64,000 nt of DNA from Verrucomicrobiaceae bacterium (GTDB lineage Bacteria; Verrucomicrobiota; Verrucomicrobiia; Verrucomicrobiales; Akkermansiaceae), in NCBI GenBank assembly GCA_027491155.1, contig JAIXWR010000038.1, positions 62,001 to 126,000 on the forward strand. Reading direction: 5' to 3'. Positions 3,446 through 11,048 of the stretch are shown here, one piece after another (position 1 is the stretch's first letter; each line of letters begins with the position of its first letter). The notes under the pieces were generated by a model. It searched no databases, was not told where the DNA came from, and worked only from the letters and a program-made list of their open reading frames with translations. The translations under genes were made by a program, and so were the position numbers.

Positions 3446-3541
3446 GGGGCGGGACCTGTTCCGCGGTGAAGCCGGTGCGCCCCGCCGGCATGCCGCTGTC
3501 ATCGCGCTCGCGGAGGTTGTGAGTTAGGCGGGTCGGAGGTT

Positions 3542-3760
3542 TCAAGCGTGGAGGAGGGGTTGGGAGAGCCGTGCGATGAGTTGGTCGCGCTTGCGGCGCG
3601 CCTCATGTTCGCAGCGGGTCTTGAGGTTCACCCGCTTCCGCTCGCGGGTGCCGTCGGGCAGGTGGAAGGTGCCGTGGAACCACCAGACGCCGTGGTTGTT
3701 CCAAAGGTGGTGGAGCGGATTCGGGCAGTGCTGCCGGGTGGAGAGACAGATCGTGTTCAT
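3542..3760 (-). CDS. Small basic protein resembling an integrase arm-binding domain
   Basis: A 72-residue ORF starts at the ATG at 3760; an in-frame ATG at 3829 exists but lies inside a terminator hairpin, so the internal start is preferred. The sequence has an HCPNPLHHLW block, then NNHGVWWFHGTFHLPDGT and a very basic tail (RKRVNLKTRCEHEARRKRDQ). This pattern of an aromatic strand, a P-D-G-T turn, 'K-T-R' and an EAR-R helix resembles the N-terminal arm-type DNA-binding domain of tyrosine recombinases, but no catalytic domain follows. It may be a stand-alone DNA binder or a remnant. A riboswitch candidate and terminator lie just upstream on the same strand. The function is unknown. Confidence 0.5.
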   Translation of the reverse strand: MNTICLSTRQHCPNPLHHLWNNHGVWWFHGTFHLPDGTRERKRVNLKTRCEHEARRKRDQLIARLSQPLLHA

Positions 3761-3801
3761 GAGGTGTCGTTCGGGGATGCGGGGCGACACCGGGACCCGG
3801 G

Positions 3802-3841
3802 AAAAACGAAACGCCCGTTCCTTTGACATCGGGACGGGCGT
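3802..3841 (-). terminator. Rho-independent terminator upstream of the small ORF
   Basis: Read on the reverse strand, an 11-bp stem (ACGCCCGTCCC paired with GGAACGGGCGT, one G-T wobble) encloses a short loop and is followed by TTTCGTTTTT. It lies between the riboswitch candidate and the small ORF, where an expression-platform terminator would be expected. Confidence 0.7.
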
Positions 3842-3887
3842 CGGAAAATTCCGGGGAGACTGTTGTTGGGCGGGTCTGTCTGGTCCC

Positions 3888-3985
3888 GCTCCCTCATCCC
3901 GTGAACTGGCTCACGGAAGCACCTTGGCGTCTCGGCTAGGTTGCTGGCCCCGTCTTGCGTCGGGGCACTCCTGATGTCGGGGAGC
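3888..3985 (-). ncRNA. SAM-clan (SAM-IV/SAM-I-IV-like) riboswitch candidate
   Basis: On the reverse strand this segment can fold into a multibranched RNA. P1 pairs GCTCCC...CATC with GATG-A-GGGAGC. P2 pairs CCCCG with CGGGG around ACGCAAGA. P3 pairs ACCT with AGGT. A further hairpin CCGTGA/TCACGG closes next to P1. The junctions carry GAGTGCC, GCAACC and GGTGCTTCC, which match core blocks of the SAM-I/SAM-IV clan as remembered. A terminator follows 46 nt downstream. The class is assigned by eye without a covariance search, and the downstream gene is a small ORF rather than a methionine gene, which is unusual. Confidence 0.55.
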
Positions 3986-4168
3986 ACTTTGGCACGCGGA
4001 TCCGGCCGGTTCAAGCGGAGAGTCCCGCCGCGGTTGTCATGAGAACCCTCCTCCGCCCCTCTTTGCAAAGACTTCGCATCGACTCCATCGGGCCGGAATC
4101 GGCTTTACCTCCGCGGAAAGGGGCGACGAGGATGGGGCGCTGGACCTCCGGCGAAAGGAACCCGTGCG

Positions 4169-7100
4169 ATGAAGGAAACCCGGATCGATGACTTCGCGAC
4201 GGCCGAAGGCTGGCAGGCCTTCGCGTCGGGCGAGGCGGTGATGAAGATCTCCGCGGAAGCCGGCGCGCTGCGGCTCGACTTCGATTTCCATGGCGGCGGC
4301 GGTTTCGTGGTGGCGCGGAAGGAATTCCGGTTCGCGATCCCCGACGACTACGCCTTCGCCTTCCGGGTGCGCGGCGCGGCGCCGAAAAACACCTTCGAGT
4401 TCAAGCTGGCGGATCCCTCGGGGAAGAACGTCTGGCGCTGGCAGGAGCCGGCCTTCGCGTTCGGCAAGCAGGCCCGCGAGCTGGTGCTCCGCGGCAGCCG
4501 CATCGGCTTCGCGTGGGGCCCGGCCGGCGGCGGGACGCCGCAGCGGCTCGGTGCGATCGAGTTCGTGCTCAGCGCACCACCGGGCGGGAAAGGCACGATC
4601 TGGATCGAGGACTTGCGCTTCCAGGACCGGACGATCCGCAAGAAGCCTGCGGTGAGCGCATCGTCGTCTGTTCGAGGAAGCGAGCCCTCATCGGTCCTCG
4701 GCACGAAGGGTTCGTGGCGCGCGGCGGCGAAGGATGCCGCGCCGGTGTTCGCTCTCGATTTCCACGAAGTCCGCGAATACGGCGGACTGGTCATCGACTG
4801 GGAGCCGGAGCCGGCGGCGCGGGCCTTCCACGTTCAGGCATCGGACGACGGCGTGAAGTGGCGGACGCTCCACCGGGCGAAGGATTCACGGGGGCCGCGG
4901 AGTTTCATCCCGCTGCCGGTGGCCGAGTCGCGGCACCTGCGGCTGGCCTTCGACACGCCGGGCATCGGCATCCGGCGGATCGCGGTGAAGCCCTTCGAGT
5001 TCTCGCGCAGCACGATCGATTTCTTCCACCAGGTCGCCGCGGCTCATCCGCGCGGCCATTTCCCGCGCTACCTGAGCCGCGAGCAGAGCTACTGGACCTG
5101 CGCCGGCGTTCCCGACGGACTGAGCTGCGCGCTGATCAACGAGGAAGGGTTGGTCGAACCCTTCAAGGGCGGCTTCACGCTGGAGCCGTTCCTGCACGAC
5201 GGCCGCAAGCTCCTCACCTGGGCCGACGCGCGGCGGACGGTGACGCTGGAAGACGGCGAGCTGCCGATCCCCTCGGCGCGCTGGTCGCTGAAAGACTGGA
5301 CCTTGCAAACGACGGTCTGCGGTTGCGGGGAAGGCGAGGACGCGGTGAGCCTCACCCGCTACCGGGTCTCTAACAGGTCCGCCGCCGCCCGCAAGGTGAC
5401 GCTCTTCGTCGCGATCCGGCCCTTTCAGGTCACGCCGCCGTGGCAGGGCTGGCAGGGGCTCGGCGGGATGAGCGAAATCCGGGAGATCGCATGGAAGAAG
5501 GACCGCGTGGTGGTGAACCGCGAACGGACGGTGTTGCCCTTGAACAAGCCTGCGGGTTTCGGTGCGGCGAGCTTCGAGCAGGGGGTGATCACGAGCGATC
5601 TCGCTGATGGCAATTTTCCGACGCAGACCGCGGCGCGCGATGTCTCGGGCTGTGCTTCGGCTGCGCTGCGCTTCGACCTGACGATACCCGCCGGCGAAAC
5701 GCGCGAGGTCTTCCTTGCGATGCCGAACGGCAAAGCCGGGGTGCCGGCCGATGGCGCGGCGGCCTTTGACGAGGCGTTGCGTGAGATGCGGTCGAGGCTG
5801 TCGGGCGTCGTCTTCGAAATGCCGGCCGGTCCGGCGCGCGAGGCCGCCCGGACTTTCAAGACTGCCGCCGGGCAAATCCTGATCAACCGCGACGGTCCCG
5901 CGCTCCAGCCGGGACCGCGGCGCTACACCCGCTCGTGGATCCGCGACGGCGTGATCATGGGTGCGGCGCTGCTGCGCAACGGCGACCTGCGCGCTTTGCC
6001 GGACTTCATCCGCTGGTATGCACCGTATCAGCGGAAGGATGGCTTCGTGCCGTGCTGCGTCGATCGCAGTGGACCCGACTGGCTGGTCGAGCACGACAGC
6101 CACGGACAACTGATCCACGGCGTCGCGGAAAGTTTCCGATTCACCGGTGACAAGGGCTTTCTCAGAGACCTCTGGCCCCATGTGAGGAAAGCGGCGAGGT
6201 TCGTCGTCAAGCTCCGTGCGGAGCGACTGACCGCGGAGTACAGCGAGCCGGACAAGGTGAACCGTTACGGCCTGCTGCCCGAGTCCGCCAGCCACGAAGG
6301 CTACCTCGCGCATCCGGTGTATTCCTACTGGGACGACTTCTGGGGTTTACGCGGCTTGCTCGATGCGGCGGAGATCGCAGCCACGCTGGGCAAGCGGGCC
6401 GATGCGGATTTCTTCAACGAGCAGGCGCTGTGGTTCCGGGCGACCTTGCATGCGTCGATCCTCGCGGTGATCGAGGCGAAGGGCCTGAACTACATCCCGG
6501 GTTCGGTCGAGTGGGCGGACTTCGATCCGACGGCAACCTCGAACGCGATCAGCCTGCTGCAAGCGATGGACGATCTGCCGCGGCAGCCGCTCGACGCGAT
6601 GTTCGATCTCTTCGTCCACGACTTCCGCCGCAAGCACTCCGGAGCGATGGAGTGGAACAACTACACCGCTTACGAGATCCGGATCATCGGCGCGTTGGTG
6701 CGGCTCGGCAAAAGGGCGGAGGCGAACGAGGTGTTAGAAGTCTTCCTCGCCGACCGCCGACCACGCGCATGGAATCAGTGGCCGGAGATTTCCTGGCGCG
6801 ACCCGCGCAGCCCGGGCCACCTCGGCGATGTGCCGCACACCTGGATCGCCGCCGAGTTCATGCTCGCCTTCGCCAGCCTGTTCGCCTTCGAGCGCGAGTC
6901 GGATGATGCGCTGGTGATCGGCGCGGGTGTTCCTTTGGAATGGCTGGAGGGCGGGGTCGCGGTGAAGGGACTGCGAACCTGGCATGGCGCGCTGGACCTT
7001 TCGATGACGCTCGACACGGAACTCGTGCTGGAGATCGGCGGTGAGGTCCACGCTCCGCGTGGCGGCTTCGTGCTGCGTCCTCCGCTTCCCGGGCCGATCC

Positions 7101-7210
7101 GTTCGGTGACGGTCAACGGCCGGACCTTGAAGAAGTTCGCGGCCGATGAAGTCCGGATCCGCGTGCTGCCGGCGACCGTCCGCATGAGTTTTGATCCCGG
7201 GCCATCTTGA
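4169..7210 (+). CDS. Large (alpha/alpha)6-barrel glycosidase-like protein with discoidin-like domain
   Basis: The 1013-residue protein starts at ATG 4169 behind an AAAGGAA ribosome-binding site. Residues 1-160 look like a carbohydrate-binding beta-sandwich, and about 185-275 like a discoidin (F5/8 type C) domain with VQASDDGVKWRTL. From about 570 on there is an alpha-helical toroid typical of glucoamylase/GH63/GH133-like enzymes, with RSWIRDGVIMGAALLRNGD, EWNNYTAYEIRIIGALVRLG and WNQWPEISWRDPRSPGHLGD. A C-terminal beta domain follows. No signal peptide is visible, suggesting a cytoplasmic enzyme acting on imported oligosaccharides. The GH94 gene lies 43 bp downstream, so the two probably act on the same glycan. 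The exact family and bond specificity cannot be set. Confidence 0.7.
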   Translation: MKETRIDDFATAEGWQAFASGEAVMKISAEAGALRLDFDFHGGGGFVVARKEFRFAIPDDYAFAFRVRGAAPKNTFEFKLADPSGKNVWRWQEPAFAFGKQARELVLRGSRIGFAWGPAGGGTPQRLGAIEFVLSAPPGGKGTIWIEDLRFQDRTIRKKPAVSASSSVRGSEPSSVLGTKGSWRAAAKDAAPVFALDFHEVREYGGLVIDWEPEPAARAFHVQASDDGVKWRTLHRAKDSRGPRSFIPLPVAESRHLRLAFDTPGIGIRRIAVKPFEFSRSTIDFFHQVAAAHPRGHFPRYLSREQSYWTCAGVPDGLSCALINEEGLVEPFKGGFTLEPFLHDGRKLLTWADARRTVTLEDGELPIPSARWSLKDWTLQTTVCGCGEGEDAVSLTRYRVSNRSAAARKVTLFVAIRPFQVTPPWQGWQGLGGMSEIREIAWKKDRVVVNRERTVLPLNKPAGFGAASFEQGVITSDLADGNFPTQTAARDVSGCASAALRFDLTIPAGETREVFLAMPNGKAGVPADGAAAFDEALREMRSRLSGVVFEMPAGPAREAARTFKTAAGQILINRDGPALQPGPRRYTRSWIRDGVIMGAALLRNGDLRALPDFIRWYAPYQRKDGFVPCCVDRSGPDWLVEHDSHGQLIHGVAESFRFTGDKGFLRDLWPHVRKAARFVVKLRAERLTAEYSEPDKVNRYGLLPESASHEGYLAHPVYSYWDDFWGLRGLLDAAEIAATLGKRADADFFNEQALWFRATLHASILAVIEAKGLNYIPGSVEWADFDPTATSNAISLLQAMDDLPRQPLDAMFDLFVHDFRRKHSGAMEWNNYTAYEIRIIGALVRLGKRAEANEVLEVFLADRRPRAWNQWPEISWRDPRSPGHLGDVPHTWIAAEFMLAFASLFAFERESDDALVIGAGVPLEWLEGGVAVKGLRTWHGALDLSMTLDTELVLEIGGEVHAPRGGFVLRPPLPGPIRSVTVNGRTLKKFAADEVRIRVLPATVRMSFDPGPS

Positions 7211-7253
7211 TCTGATCCGACCGATCCTTCCCCAATCCTCAAATCTCCCCGCC

Positions 7254-10200
7254 ATGAAACCCGACCCGCAGCTCCCGACTCCCCACGCCCGTTTTCTGTC
7301 GAACGGCCGCTACCATGTCTTCCTCGGCGCCGCCGGCACCGGGCAATCGCGTCGGCACGGCCATGCGGTGAACCGCTGGAGCGGCGATCCGGTGGAGGAC
7401 GCGCAAGGGCAGTTCATCTACCTCCGCGACCTCGATGGCGGCGCGACCTGGTCGGCCGCAATGCAGCCGCTGAAAGTGCCTTCGCTTGCCTACGAGTCGT
7501 CGGACGTTCCCGGCGTGTTCAGCATCGTGAACGAATGCGAAGGCATCCGCGCGCGGCTGGATGTCGCGGTGTCGCCGGCCGATGACCTTGAGATCCGGCG
7601 CCTTCACCTGCGCAATCTTTCCGGACGGCCGCGGCGGATCGAAGTGACGAGTTTCCTCGAAGCCGTGCTCACGTGGCAAGGCGAGGACCTCGGGCATCCG
7701 GCGTTCTCGAAGCTGTTCGTGCAGACGAGCTGCGACGCGACGAACTCGATGCTGCTCGCCGAGCGCCGGCCGCGCGGGGCGGATGAAACATGGCCCTGCC
7801 TGTTCCATGCGCTTGCCGGGGCCGCCGCGAGCGGATGGGAGACCGACCGGCTGCGCTTCATCGGCCGCGGCCGCGACTTGTCGGACCCGCGGGCGATGGA
7901 AGACGAACGGCTGTCCGGCACCGTCGGCAACGTGCTCGATCCCTGCCTGAGCTTGCGCGTGGTGATGGAGTTCGCGGTGGGTCAGGAGCGCGAGCTGGGC
8001 TTCGTCACCGGCATCGCCGAAACACGGGAAGCCGCGGCGGAGATGGGGAAGCGGCATCGCACCGTGGCGGATCTCGACCGGGTGCTGCAGGATGCCGGTG
8101 CCGCGGAACTCGCGTTGCAGGGAAGGCTGGGGATCGATCCCGCCGAAGCCGAGCGCTTCCAGTCGCTGGCGGCGGCGATGTACTACGGATGTCGGAGTTT
8201 GGTTCCGGCAAAGATTGGAATCGCTCCCGACGCCGACGCCAACGCCTTCTTCGGCAAGCACCGCATCCCGCGCGACCGGCCGCAGGTGGTGGTCTGCGGA
8301 CCCTGGGACAGCGGCTTGACGCGGGAACTGCTGAAGGCCCGCGATTACTGGAACCACAAGGGATTCTTCACGAACTTCATCGTGCTCGCGGATTCCGCGG
8401 GGAAGGTTCCGGAGGGGCTCGACGACCGGGTGTTCACGATTCCCGCCGCGTCGCTTTCCGATGCCGACCGCGCGCTGCTGTTCGCCTCGGCTTCGGCGGT
8501 GGTGAAGGACCGATTCCCCGATCTGAGCGCCAACCACGCGCCCGCTCCGCCGCCGGAGATCAAGTGGATCCTCCACGAGACGTGCCCGTCGAAAGAGGAG
8601 GAGCCGTTGCAATTCTTCAACGGCCACGGCGGCTTCAGCGCGGATGGATCCGAATACGTGATCCGCCTGCCGCGCGGCGGGAAGCGGCCGCCGATGCCGT
8701 GGATCAACGTGATCGCCAACGAGGCGGCGGGCTTCCTGGTCAGCGAGAGCGGTGCGGGCTGCACCTGGGCGCGCAACAGCCAGGCGAACCGCATCACGCC
8801 CTGGTCGAACGAGCCGGCCGGCGATCCGCACGGCGAGGCGCTTTACCTGCGCGACGAGAAGACCGGCGCGGTCTGGTCGCCGCTGCCCGGCCCGGTGCCA
8901 GGGTCCTGCGACTACGAGGTGCGGCACGGCTTCGGCGCGACGCGCTTCCTTTCGAGCTGTCACGGGATCGACCAGGAGGTGACGATGTTCGTCCCGCGCG
9001 TCGATCCGGTGAAGATCATCCACCTGCGTCTCAGCAATCATTCGAAAGTCGCGAAGCATCTGGGTTTCACGTGCTTCCAGCGGCTGGTCCTGGGTTCGTT
9101 GCCGGCTCGGCCAAGCCTGATCGTCACGCGGGAAGAAAAGGATGGCAGCTTGCGCGCGGTGAATCCGGCGGCGGGGGATTTCCTCGGCGGCGTGGCTTTC
9201 GGCGCGACCTCTTTGAGCGGCGCGGAAGTGGAAAGGCGGGACTTCACCTGCGACCGGCTCGCCTTCCTCGGCCGCCACGGCACGCCGCGGAATCCGGCGG
9301 GCCTGCGGAACGGCGTCGAACTCGGCGGCGCGACCGGCGCGGGGTTGGATCCCTGCTTCGCGGAACGGCGGACCTTCACGCTGGAGCCGGGCGGGGTGGT
9401 CGAGATCGTGGTGCTGCTCGGCGAGGCGATGAGCGAGGCGGAAGCCGCCGCTTTGATCGCGCGCTACCGCGATCCGGTCGTGGCGTTGGAGGCACTCGCG
9501 GAGGCACGGGATTTCTGGAAATCATTGCTGGGCGCGGTGAAGGTGATCACTCCTTCGCCGGTGCTCGACCTGATGGTCAACGGCTGGCTCGCTTACCAGA
9601 CGCTGTGCTGCCGGATGTGGGCGCGCTCGGCCTTCTATCAGTCGAGCGGTGCCTTCGGCTACCGCGACCAATTGCAGGACTCCGGCTCGCTGCTGCCGCT
9701 GGATCCCTCGTTCGCGCGGCGGCAGATCCTGCTGCACGCAAGGCACCAGTTCGTCGAAGGCGACGTGCTCCATTGGTGGCATCCGGAGCCGATCGAGCGC
9801 GGCCTGCGCACCCGCTTTTCCGACGACCTGCTGTGGCTGCCGCTGGTCACCGCCGACTACGTGCTCGCGACCGGCGACCACGCGGTGCTCGACGAGCGTG
9901 AGCCCTATCTAACAGCGCCGCTGCTGGAAGACGGGCACGACGAGAATTACCTCACGCCGGAACCTGTGGGAGAGGACGGCAGTCTCTACGACCACTGCTG
10001 CCGGGCAATCGACCGCTCGCTGGTGACCGGAGCGCACGGCCTGCCGCTGATGGGCACCGGCGACTGGAACGACGGCATGAGCCGAGTCGGCCGCGAGGGG
10101 AAGGGCGAAAGCGTGTGGATGGGGTTCTTCCTTTACCGGATTCTCGGCAAATTCATCCCGCTCTGCGAGTCGCGCGGCGATGGCGGGCGGGCGGCGAAGT

Positions 10201-11048
10201 ACGAGGAACATCGAAGCAAGCTCCGCGTCGCGCTCAACGATGGCGGCTGGGACGGTGAGTGGTATCGCCGCGCCTATTACGACAACGGCGCGCCGCTGGG
10301 GTCGAAGGAGAGCGACGAATGCAAGATCGACGCCCTCGCGCAGGCCTGGGCCATCCTTTCGAAGGCCGCGCCGCCCGAACGTGCGGAGCTCGCGATGGCG
10401 GCGATGTCGCGCGAGCTGATTTCGGAAGAAGAAGGCCTGATCCGCCTGCTCACCCCGCCTTTCGTCAACACGGCCAATGATCCCGGCTACATCAAGGGCT
10501 ACGTCGCCGGTGTGCGCGAGAACGGCGGCCAGTACACCCACGCCGCCTGCTGGGCAGTGCAGGCCATCGCGGAGCATGGCGACAACAACCGGGCGCTGCG
10601 TCTTTGGGAAATGCTCACGCCGGTCCTTCATGCGCGGAATCCGGAAGCGGCGGAGATTTACAAGGTGGAGCCCTACGCCGTCGCCGCCGACATCTACGGC
10701 GCGGTGCCGCACATCGGACGCGGCGGCTGGACCTGGTACACGGGATCGTCCGGCTGGATGTACCGCGTGGCGATCGAGTCGATCCTCGGCCTGCGGGTCG
10801 AGGATGGCGGGACGCTGGTGATCCGGCCCTGCATTCCCGATGAATGGCCGTCGTTCGTGATCCGAGGCGGGCTGCCGGACGGTTCGGCGAGCTATCGTGT
10901 GACCGTGGAGAATCCCGCCGCATCGGCGAAGCGGGTCGTTTCAGCAGAGGTCGATGGAGTGCAGGTGGCCATCATCGACGGTGCGGCGCGGATTCCCCTG
11001 CCGCGCGACGGCGGGATCCATGAAGTGCGGGTGATGCTCGGGGCTTGA
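7254..11048 (+). CDS. GH94 family glycoside phosphorylase-like protein
   Basis: This is a 1264-residue relative of cellobiose/chitobiose phosphorylases and of the phosphorylase part of cyclic beta-glucan synthases (formerly GT36). The catalytic barrel lies in the C-terminal third, with GTGDWNDGMSRVG at about 935-947 holding the general-acid Asp, then NGGQYTHAACW and GGWTWYTGSSGWMYR. Two N-terminal beta-supersandwich units are present, one from residue 1 and one from about residue 450, each with a YLRD...W block. The doubled N-terminus and length fit 1,2-beta-oligoglucan phosphorylase-like enzymes better than 800-residue cellobiose phosphorylase. Family known, substrate inferred. ATG 7254 follows the preceding gene by 43 bp. 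No signal peptide. Confidence 0.82.
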   Translation: MKPDPQLPTPHARFLSNGRYHVFLGAAGTGQSRRHGHAVNRWSGDPVEDAQGQFIYLRDLDGGATWSAAMQPLKVPSLAYESSDVPGVFSIVNECEGIRARLDVAVSPADDLEIRRLHLRNLSGRPRRIEVTSFLEAVLTWQGEDLGHPAFSKLFVQTSCDATNSMLLAERRPRGADETWPCLFHALAGAAASGWETDRLRFIGRGRDLSDPRAMEDERLSGTVGNVLDPCLSLRVVMEFAVGQERELGFVTGIAETREAAAEMGKRHRTVADLDRVLQDAGAAELALQGRLGIDPAEAERFQSLAAAMYYGCRSLVPAKIGIAPDADANAFFGKHRIPRDRPQVVVCGPWDSGLTRELLKARDYWNHKGFFTNFIVLADSAGKVPEGLDDRVFTIPAASLSDADRALLFASASAVVKDRFPDLSANHAPAPPPEIKWILHETCPSKEEEPLQFFNGHGGFSADGSEYVIRLPRGGKRPPMPWINVIANEAAGFLVSESGAGCTWARNSQANRITPWSNEPAGDPHGEALYLRDEKTGAVWSPLPGPVPGSCDYEVRHGFGATRFLSSCHGIDQEVTMFVPRVDPVKIIHLRLSNHSKVAKHLGFTCFQRLVLGSLPARPSLIVTREEKDGSLRAVNPAAGDFLGGVAFGATSLSGAEVERRDFTCDRLAFLGRHGTPRNPAGLRNGVELGGATGAGLDPCFAERRTFTLEPGGVVEIVVLLGEAMSEAEAAALIARYRDPVVALEALAEARDFWKSLLGAVKVITPSPVLDLMVNGWLAYQTLCCRMWARSAFYQSSGAFGYRDQLQDSGSLLPLDPSFARRQILLHARHQFVEGDVLHWWHPEPIERGLRTRFSDDLLWLPLVTADYVLATGDHAVLDEREPYLTAPLLEDGHDENYLTPEPVGEDGSLYDHCCRAIDRSLVTGAHGLPLMGTGDWNDGMSRVGREGKGESVWMGFFLYRILGKFIPLCESRGDGGRAAKYEEHRSKLRVALNDGGWDGEWYRRAYYDNGAPLGSKESDECKIDALAQAWAILSKAAPPERAELAMAAMSRELISEEEGLIRLLTPPFVNTANDPGYIKGYVAGVRENGGQYTHAACWAVQAIAEHGDNNRALRLWEMLTPVLHARNPEAAEIYKVEPYAVAADIYGAVPHIGRGGWTWYTGSSGWMYRVAIESILGLRVEDGGTLVIRPCIPDEWPSFVIRGGLPDGSASYRVTVENPAASAKRVVSAEVDGVQVAIIDGAARIPLPRDGGIHEVRVMLGA

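Follow-up and report, generated by a model that had tools for sequence, protein, structure and literature searches.

A probable SAM-I/IV riboswitch ahead of a small conserved gene in Verrucomicrobiota

The DNA analysed here (the window) is a 64,000-nucleotide stretch from a Verrucomicrobiaceae bacterium. On its reverse strand lie, in the order of transcription, a candidate promoter region, a predicted riboswitch aptamer, a terminator, a hairpin ahead of a start codon and a small open reading frame (ORF) (Table 1). An earlier note, made from the sequence alone, had recognised three junction blocks of a SAM-clan riboswitch here; their positions were right (GAGTGCC at 3970-3964, GCAACC at 3944-3939 and GGTGCTTCC at 3923-3915, reverse strand).

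Table 1. Features at the riboswitch locus, in window coordinates.
Feature	Position	Strand	Basis
TCATGACAAC, window copy of the conserved TATGACA box	4033..4042	-	upstream of the riboswitch promoter; ATGACA count over 84 RNAs
Candidate -35 box TTGAAC	4009..4014	-	read by eye from upstream regions
Putative SAM-I/IV riboswitch aptamer	3853..3982	-	RF01725 sub-gathering score; covariation over 84 copies
P1 5' strand CAUC (with flanks GACAUC, 3978-3973)	3973..3976	-	Rfam match and alignment
P2 hairpin, no internal loop	3947..3966	-	double changes in 5/5 modelled pairs
P3 with conserved AACC / GGUG core	3918..3945	-	core conservation over 84 copies
PK-2 pseudoknot, P3-loop strand GAGAC	3929..3933	-	complement of at least 5 nt in the 3' tail
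P4 hairpin CCGUGA/UCACGG	3899..3916	-	double changes in 6/6 pairs, 79.1% of cells paired
P1 3' strand GAUG	3895..3898	-	Rfam match and alignment
P5 hairpin	3868..3892	-	double changes in 7/7 pairs
PK-2 pseudoknot, 3' strand GUCUC	3856..3860	-	same PK-2 complement test
Intrinsic terminator ACGCCCGT / ACGGGCGT then UUUCGUUUUU	3802..3841	-	-22.4 kcal/mol, z -1.52
GAUGUC in terminator loop, complement of P1 5' strand GACAUC	3825..3830	-	downstream-complement test over 73 RNAs
Hairpin GGUGUCG / CGACACC, ending 2 nt before the start codon	3763..3791	-	5' arm can pair with P1 5' strand (one G-U)
Small ORF, 72 aa from ATG at 3760, arm-domain-like protein	3542..3760	-	ORF, homologues and predicted fold

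A permissive-filter Rfam scan of 3500-4200 matched 3982-3853 of the reverse strand to the SAM-I/IV family (RF01725, SAM-I-IV) over model positions 1-99 of 99, with 35.7 bits and an E-value of 5.5e-4; this is below the gathering score of 41.1. RF01725 was the sole match reported there, two SAM-clan matches with lower scores having been suppressed. At gathering scores, Rfam gave no family match over the 64-kb window. The whole genome was also searched with RF01725 and RF00162, and zero hits were obtained at E ≤ 0.001. Of the covariance models named in the earlier note, RF01725 thus gave a sub-gathering match in the scan of 3500-4200, and RF00162 gave none in the genome. When the window RNA was folded as a single sequence, the result was not significant (z -1.75; 12 of 200 shuffles were equally good). 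Since this fold is uninformative and the genome-wide Rfam searches gave no hits, the identification rests on comparison.

We compared RNAs found with a covariance model built from ten copies, both copies of the window's own genome included (R1). R1 matched 85 places, spread over 76 of the 386 genomes searched in the order; this count, like all counts given here, is inflated by kinship among the genomes; the E-values of R1 and of a further model, R2, are rough. In a DNA search, copies of the RNA were found in 13 of 144 genomes, the own genome counted. The covariation alignment holds 84 of the 85 RNAs; the one left out is the best R1 hit, L020, which has both the RNA and the small ORF. In this alignment, which was fitted to the structure and is biased towards it, 92.2% of the cells were paired and 24 of 31 pairs showed a change on both sides. 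The covariation score over the 84 copies was 0.326, compared with 0.128 in shuffles (0 of 500 as high), and sliding the partners lowered the pairing to 26.5-44%. P1 does not covary because it is nearly invariant, and it says little by itself. For the PK-2 pseudoknot, a complement of at least 5 nt to the P3 loop was present in the 3' tail of 74 of the 77 RNAs tested, with loops such as GAGAC, GGAGAA and others; the script did not find the loop borders in seven further RNAs, which were dropped. Shuffled tails reached at most 32 (200 rounds) and swapped loops at most 63 (300 rounds). The shuffles in this control, and in those for the P1 complement, the ATGACA and TATGACA box, the terminator and the start hairpin below, were of single bases.

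Among 40 loci scanned, five relatives with the same downstream gene passed the RF01725 gathering score, with 41.3-44.9 bits (L288 44.9, L188 43.8, L281 43.7, L283 41.6 and L221 41.3). By this comparison, the window copy, though sub-threshold, is part of one continuous set with the relatives that pass.

The predicted anatomy of the window RNA comprises an undivided P2, P3, P4 within the junction, P5 behind P1 and a PK-2 pseudoknot in which the P3 loop pairs with the 3' tail; the absence of an internal loop in P2 was read from the alignments. The core bases GA (J1-2), GCAACC and GGUG are near-invariant, with AACC in 83-84 and GGUG in 84 of the 84 copies, and we take the AACC, GGUG and J1-2 GA bases to be those that contact SAM. 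The blocks GCAACC and AAGGUGC are common to the window RNA and to the crystallised SAM-I/IV aptamer (4L81), in the sequence given in PMC5393176. As described in the available parts of PMC6890682 and PMC5393176, the SAM-I/IV class (RF01725; 4L81) shares with the window RNA P1, the undivided P2, P3 with GCAACC...AAGGUGC, P4, P5 and PK-2. It is set apart from SAM-IV by its undivided P2, the lack of PK-1 and the presence of P4 (PMC6890682, available part). SAM-IV (RF00634) shares its hallmarks, P5 and PK-2, with the window RNA, but its P2 is split into P2a and P2b, PK-1 is present and P4 is absent, according to the same part of PMC6890682. SAM-I (RF00162) shares the ligand core and P4, whereas its P2 is divided by a kink-turn and it has no PK-2 of the SAM-IV kind (PMC6890682, available part); the window RNA has PK-2 and no P2 internal loop. 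The SAM-I/SAM-IV variants are typically metagenomic and miss the P2 internal loop, as stated in the available part of the Weinberg 2010 survey (PMC2864571). The window copy differs from SAM-I/IV as represented by RF01725 in its sub-gathering score, in the platform formed by the P1 5' strand and the terminator loop and in its small arm-domain-like target; neither this platform nor such a target is described in the available parts of PMC6890682 or PMC5393176.

These comparisons support the window RNA as a real SAM-clan RNA and narrow it to the SAM-I/IV class. The earlier note had proposed a four-helix fold of SAM-IV or SAM-I-IV type. A structured RNA of the SAM clan and of the SAM-I/IV type stands; the number of helices does not, since there are five (P1-P5) and a pseudoknot, and SAM-IV falls away, since P4 is present and P2 is undivided. 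The further thought that the RNA might be of another class is unsupported.

The rho-independent terminator that the earlier note had seen downstream is present, as an intrinsic terminator. An automated terminator scan detected none; its loop limit is 8, and the loop here has 15 nt. The loop carries a complement of the P1 5' strand. We looked for such complements (at least 6 nt, with CATC included, and at most 120 nt downstream) in 73 RNAs, a set that omits two RNAs with short tails and nine without CATC. They were present in 59 of the 73, compared with a mean of 3.8 and a maximum of 10 in shuffled tails (200 rounds) and a mean of 41.6 and a maximum of 48 with swapped strands (500 rounds). The conservation of P1 makes matches frequent with swapped strands too, and the covariation in favour of a switch is therefore moderate. 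Differing versions of the strand and its complement nevertheless pair up with each other (GACAUC/GAUGUC, ACAUCAAG/CUUGAUGU and GCAUCAG/CUGAUGC). The 14 of 73 RNAs without a 6-nt complement count against a switch.

By a strict definition, 29 of the 84 RNAs have a terminator-like hairpin (shuffles: mean 1.4, maximum 3, 15 rounds), and in 26 of the 29 GATG or AATG lies inside it. A start hairpin, in which the sequence of the P1 5' strand recurs close to the ATG with its complement before it, was found in 38 of 71 RNAs (shuffles: mean 0.26, maximum 2, 100 rounds). Eight of these hairpins are doubtful, either because fewer than 3 or more than 40 nt separate the arms or for other reasons. When a distance of 3-40 nt was required, the count was 32 of 71, and shuffles reached at most 1. 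Eleven RNAs have both kinds of hairpin. By the same strict definitions, 55 of 84 RNAs lack the terminator and 33 of 71 the start hairpin, and we count these against a switch as well. Because its match to P1 relies on a G-U pair, the start hairpin of the window was not counted by the script; its stability does not exceed that of shuffles (z 0.60). As isolated duplexes with the P1 5' strand, the P1 3' strand gave -8.3, the terminator loop -9.5 and the start-hairpin arm -10.5 kcal/mol, so that the alternative partners are slightly favoured over P1. For the whole leader, forced P1 gave -87.3 kcal/mol versus -79.1 kcal/mol for the forced pairing of P1 with the terminator loop. Since the leader energy favours P1, the alternative pairing would have to form during transcription.

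The simplest reading of these features would be an OFF switch decided during transcription, with SAM as the presumed ligand and the direction deduced from the pairings. When SAM is plentiful, it would bind the aptamer and stabilise P1. With the P1 5' strand occupied, the terminator and the start hairpin would be free to form and the small gene would be off. When SAM is low, the P1 5' strand would pair with the terminator loop and the small gene would be transcribed; in relatives elsewhere, the P1 5' strand without SAM may instead open a hairpin over the start codon. The RNA very probably senses the methyl donor SAM. That a riboswitch of the SAM-I/IV class turns the small gene off at high SAM we regard as highly probable, a judgement that applies to the switch and not to the role of the protein.

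The RNA and the small ORF usually occur together. In 72 of the 84 RNAs, the small-ORF domain begins on the same strand, 59-295 nt past the RNA. With L020 and two loci in which the ORF runs off the contig (L045 and L088), the number of RNAs followed by the small ORF rises to 75 of 85. Three of the RNAs sit at contig ends. Seven are true exceptions without the small ORF, namely the second copy of the own genome, which precedes a 250-aa ORF, and L027, L038, L041, L044, L047 and L093; a DUF2637 gene lies behind the RNA of L041 and a MoxR-type ATPase gene behind that of L044. The RNA of L041 (G156:C81), which stands before a DUF2637 / HTH protein, is a shorter RNA of the set.

The 72-residue ORF that the earlier note had placed downstream of the RNA is borne out by its relatives. 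The small protein is encoded in 196 of the 386 genomes of the order (E ≤ 0.001, own genome included), in 66 of 288 genomes of a phylum-wide draw (own genome and weak matches to E 5e-4 included) and in 544 stretches of GTDB species genomes. Synteny, which the earlier note had proposed to examine, was followed in two sets of loci, both chosen by protein. In the best 80 of the 544, which are the nearest to the window protein and so favour copies of the riboswitch type, the RNA lies upstream of the small ORF in 55 at E ≤ 1 (weakest 0.38) and in 47 at E ≤ 0.001. The second set comprised 40 of 49 class- and phylum-level matches, nine being left out, six of them weak; the RNA was upstream in 24 of the 40 (weakest E 0.029). 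The loci with both RNA and small ORF include metagenome-assembled genomes named Opitutae, Chthoniobacter and Lentisphaerae and one labelled Planctomycetota. Judged from these matches, the pair recurs across the phylum Verrucomicrobiota. The published literature that we searched, mostly outside subscription journals, held no description of this pairing. The aptamer class is already known, and its commonest target over a phylum appears to be a tiny uncharacterised protein. Riboswitches are good guides to gene function, and one with such a target points to an unknown branch of SAM biology.

The small protein does not need the switch, since 124 of the 196 genomes that encode it have no RNA match at E ≤ 0.001. 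No R1 match was found in Akkermansia-type genomes or in 13 of the 16 genomes listed for the own genus, while each of these holds 1-3 copies of the protein. The own genome has both kinds of copy, one with the RNA (in the window) and one without (on C40). In 20 loci of small ORFs without the riboswitch, Rfam at gathering scores gave no SAM-clan hit, and R1 gave as signs of a hidden aptamer just two matches, at E 1 and 1.4, one of which overlaps the gene for ribosomal protein L28. R2 gave no match in these loci (L128-L147) and four in other loci (E 0.0048 to 0.044). The protein is conserved in Verrucomicrobiota and has relatives without the riboswitch in Akkermansia; the riboswitch suggests that it may have a part in SAM or methionine physiology. 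The riboswitch-less small ORF lies behind a PLP enzyme of Cys/Met metabolism in 12 of the 20 loci (L128-L133 and others) and behind L28 in five. The PLP protein of L129 matches PF01053 (E 3.7e-39); among the 25 NCBIfam matches listed for it, none reaches its cut-off, the best being BesB with 246.6 of 800 bits.

In some lineages, the operon behind the riboswitch continues into metK. In L122, the small ORF overlaps the start of metK by ATGA (TIGR01034, 458.9 bits), and metK also directly follows the small ORF in L124/L219, L156, L264 and L276. One MetK query adjoined six distinct places with RNA and small ORF, which is a lower bound because the flanks were short (1.2-3 kb) and the query single. 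We extended eleven loci, chosen for having MoxR or metK. In eight of them, the small ORF stands with genes for a MoxR-type ATPase, a DUF2201-like protein and a MetK homologue; in two, only the small ORF and metK are present; and L298 has the MoxR-type and DUF2201-like genes without small ORF or metK. The RNA was found in 10 of the 11 at E ≤ 8e-6, and most of the RNAs that R2 recovers there had also been used to build it; neither R1 nor R2 matched L302. For L305, the DUF2201 assignment is below its threshold (20.2 of 23.2 bits), and L297 has none. As the riboswitch operon continues in some lineages into metK, a MoxR-type ATPase gene and a DUF2201-like gene, a link of the small-ORF/riboswitch system to SAM is likely. 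The finding ties the MoxR-type ATPase and the DUF2201-like protein to MetK.

The MoxR-type ATPase / DUF2201-like / MetK cluster recurs behind the SAM-I/IV RNA among L296-L306. The MetK of L305 is divergent, with about 29% identity to that of L122. In L302 (G550), the cluster of small ORF, MoxR, DUF2201-like and MetK genes is followed by a gene for homoserine O-succinyltransferase, and the sequence upstream resembles a diverged SAM-clan RNA by eye.

The same operons bear on whether the window copy is a relic. In that case, the riboswitch would earlier have governed a MoxR-type / DUF2201-like / metK operon that has since lost its main genes in this genome, and the small ORF would be what remains of it, its first gene. 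Eight of the eleven extended loci have such operons, in a sample chosen for MoxR or metK. A search of the own genome for the DUF2201-like protein, run without a positive control, came back empty, and the one match of this genome to the MetK of L305 lies on another contig (C36). However, the MetK query adjoins only six RNA-small ORF places, itself a lower bound, and the small ORF is conserved over the phylum, so we consider a relic improbable. The suggestion in the earlier note that the original target was lost may be partly true, since in some relatives the small ORF is followed by MoxR, DUF2201-like and metK genes, which are missing from the window copy. The best fit among its three alternatives is the one that gives the ORF a SAM-linked role, in view of the frequency of the pair, its spread over the phylum and the metK operons.

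A second alternative concerns the ligand. The SAM-I/IV scaffold might be kept and sense SAH or another adenosyl compound or metabolite, which would suit a usual target that is not a classical methionine gene and a window RNA that scores below gathering. The near-invariant core bases, the presence of metK in the same riboswitch operon in several lineages and the five homologues above the SAM-I/IV gathering score argue against this, and we think a changed ligand quite improbable.

The small protein is basic and was modelled with AlphaFold from 68 sequences, which have nine invariant columns. The model is beta-beta-beta-alpha (strands 19-22, 25-33 and 39-45; helix 51-66), with a mean pLDDT of 79.4 and block values of 84-91 for residues 21-60. 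It is hardly credible that the ORF is a leader peptide or a spacer for post-transcriptional control without a functional protein: it is indeed the first ORF after the switch, with the ATGA overlap in L122, but the invariant columns, the modelled fold and the copies that exist without any riboswitch all speak for a protein.

The earlier note had seen a resemblance to an integrase arm-binding domain, and this holds weakly. Foldseek with the model gave no match at E ≤ 0.001, and the best E-value in a sequence search of solved structures was 0.57. In a structural second look (VIA), the arm domain of HPI integrase (3jtz) came first (Z 4.3, rmsd 2.3, 50 residues aligned) and that of HAI7 integrase third (Z 3.9); every Z was below 5, and unrelated chains scored nearly as high. 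DUF6538 (PF20172) was hit at E ≤ 0.1 by 59 of 68 members (best 2.9e-6), and the window protein itself, with 13.8 bits, is below the gathering score of 27. The predicted three strands and helix of the small protein resemble those of the integrase arm-type DNA-binding domains (3jtz, 3ju0) and DUF6538. The small protein differs from the integrase arm domains in standing alone, with about 70-90 aa and no catalytic domain, and the similarity is weak. As a basic beta-beta-beta-alpha protein of integrase-arm-like form, it may bind DNA; given the weak resemblance and the nearly equal scores of unrelated chains, DNA binding is a lead. It may serve SAM or methionine homeostasis, and here we can only guess at a regulator or a partner of the MoxR-type, DUF2201-like and MetK proteins.

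Other origins of the small ORF were considered and set aside. For a phage origin, L131, a Luteolibacter-type relative, had no match in 50,697 phage records, a single relative of the protein family was found in IMG/VR, and its one PHROG hit was weak. For a defence origin, neither the small protein nor the 250-aa ORF gave a PADLOC hit.

The region upstream of the aptamer is also conserved. ATGACA occurs at most 95 nt upstream of P1 in 71 of the 84 RNAs (shuffles: mean 1.6, maximum 6, 500 rounds), and TATGTCAC stands at a similar place in eight of the other 13 by eye. The spacings fall into two classes, 43 at 51-56 nt and 28 at 60-66 nt from P1. The classes differ by roughly one helical turn, as would be expected if a protein bound one face of the DNA. 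A TTG-type box often follows the TATGACA box; a consensus promoter scan gave no promoter. Upstream of small ORFs, TATGACA was found on either strand in 58 of 85 loci with the RNA (shuffles at most 8) and in 13 of 50 without it (shuffles at most 5), L174, L191, L203, L204, L208, L210 and L225 having been put in the RNA group by eye. The TATGACA box is probably a regulator site.

In the own genome, TYATGACAAC has four sites, namely both riboswitch promoters and two inside ORFs. A wider regulon of the box in this genome was rejected, as the two sites beyond the riboswitch promoters are coding. A longer pattern of the box occurs at the window copy and two further places.

The switch and the box might be parts of one relay, in which the switch sets the level of an arm-domain DNA-binding protein that binds the TATGACA box at its own promoter and perhaps elsewhere. 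We put this forward tentatively and with more doubt than confidence. If it is true, SAM status would become a trans-acting signal across Verrucomicrobiota. The promoter box, the switch and the 72-residue protein form a set that can be tested directly at the bench.

The second copy of the RNA in the own genome was found by the DNA search on C24, with 82% identity. This SAM-I/IV copy (G000:C24:10369-10237; L002, L003) precedes the 250-aa ORF, and its anti-P1 sequence GATGTC overlaps the ATG of that ORF. Neither Pfam nor NCBIfam gave a match to the 250-aa ORF. A search of 288 genomes yielded, apart from the ORF itself, a single marginal relative (G278:C4:1826-2158, E 6.0e-4), which lies downstream of the RNA and small ORF of G278; tblastn does not support this relative (best E 1.0, on the other strand). 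By eye, a repeat of roughly 130 bases that includes a GC-rich hairpin (GGGGCCGCACAC...GCGGCCCC) flanks the second copy on both sides, at 110-260 and 1775-1930 of L002. Elsewhere in the window, a 1285-aa ORF on the forward strand (7191-11048) carries GH94 supersandwich and catalytic domains and adjoins a glycosidase-like ORF at 4169-7210.
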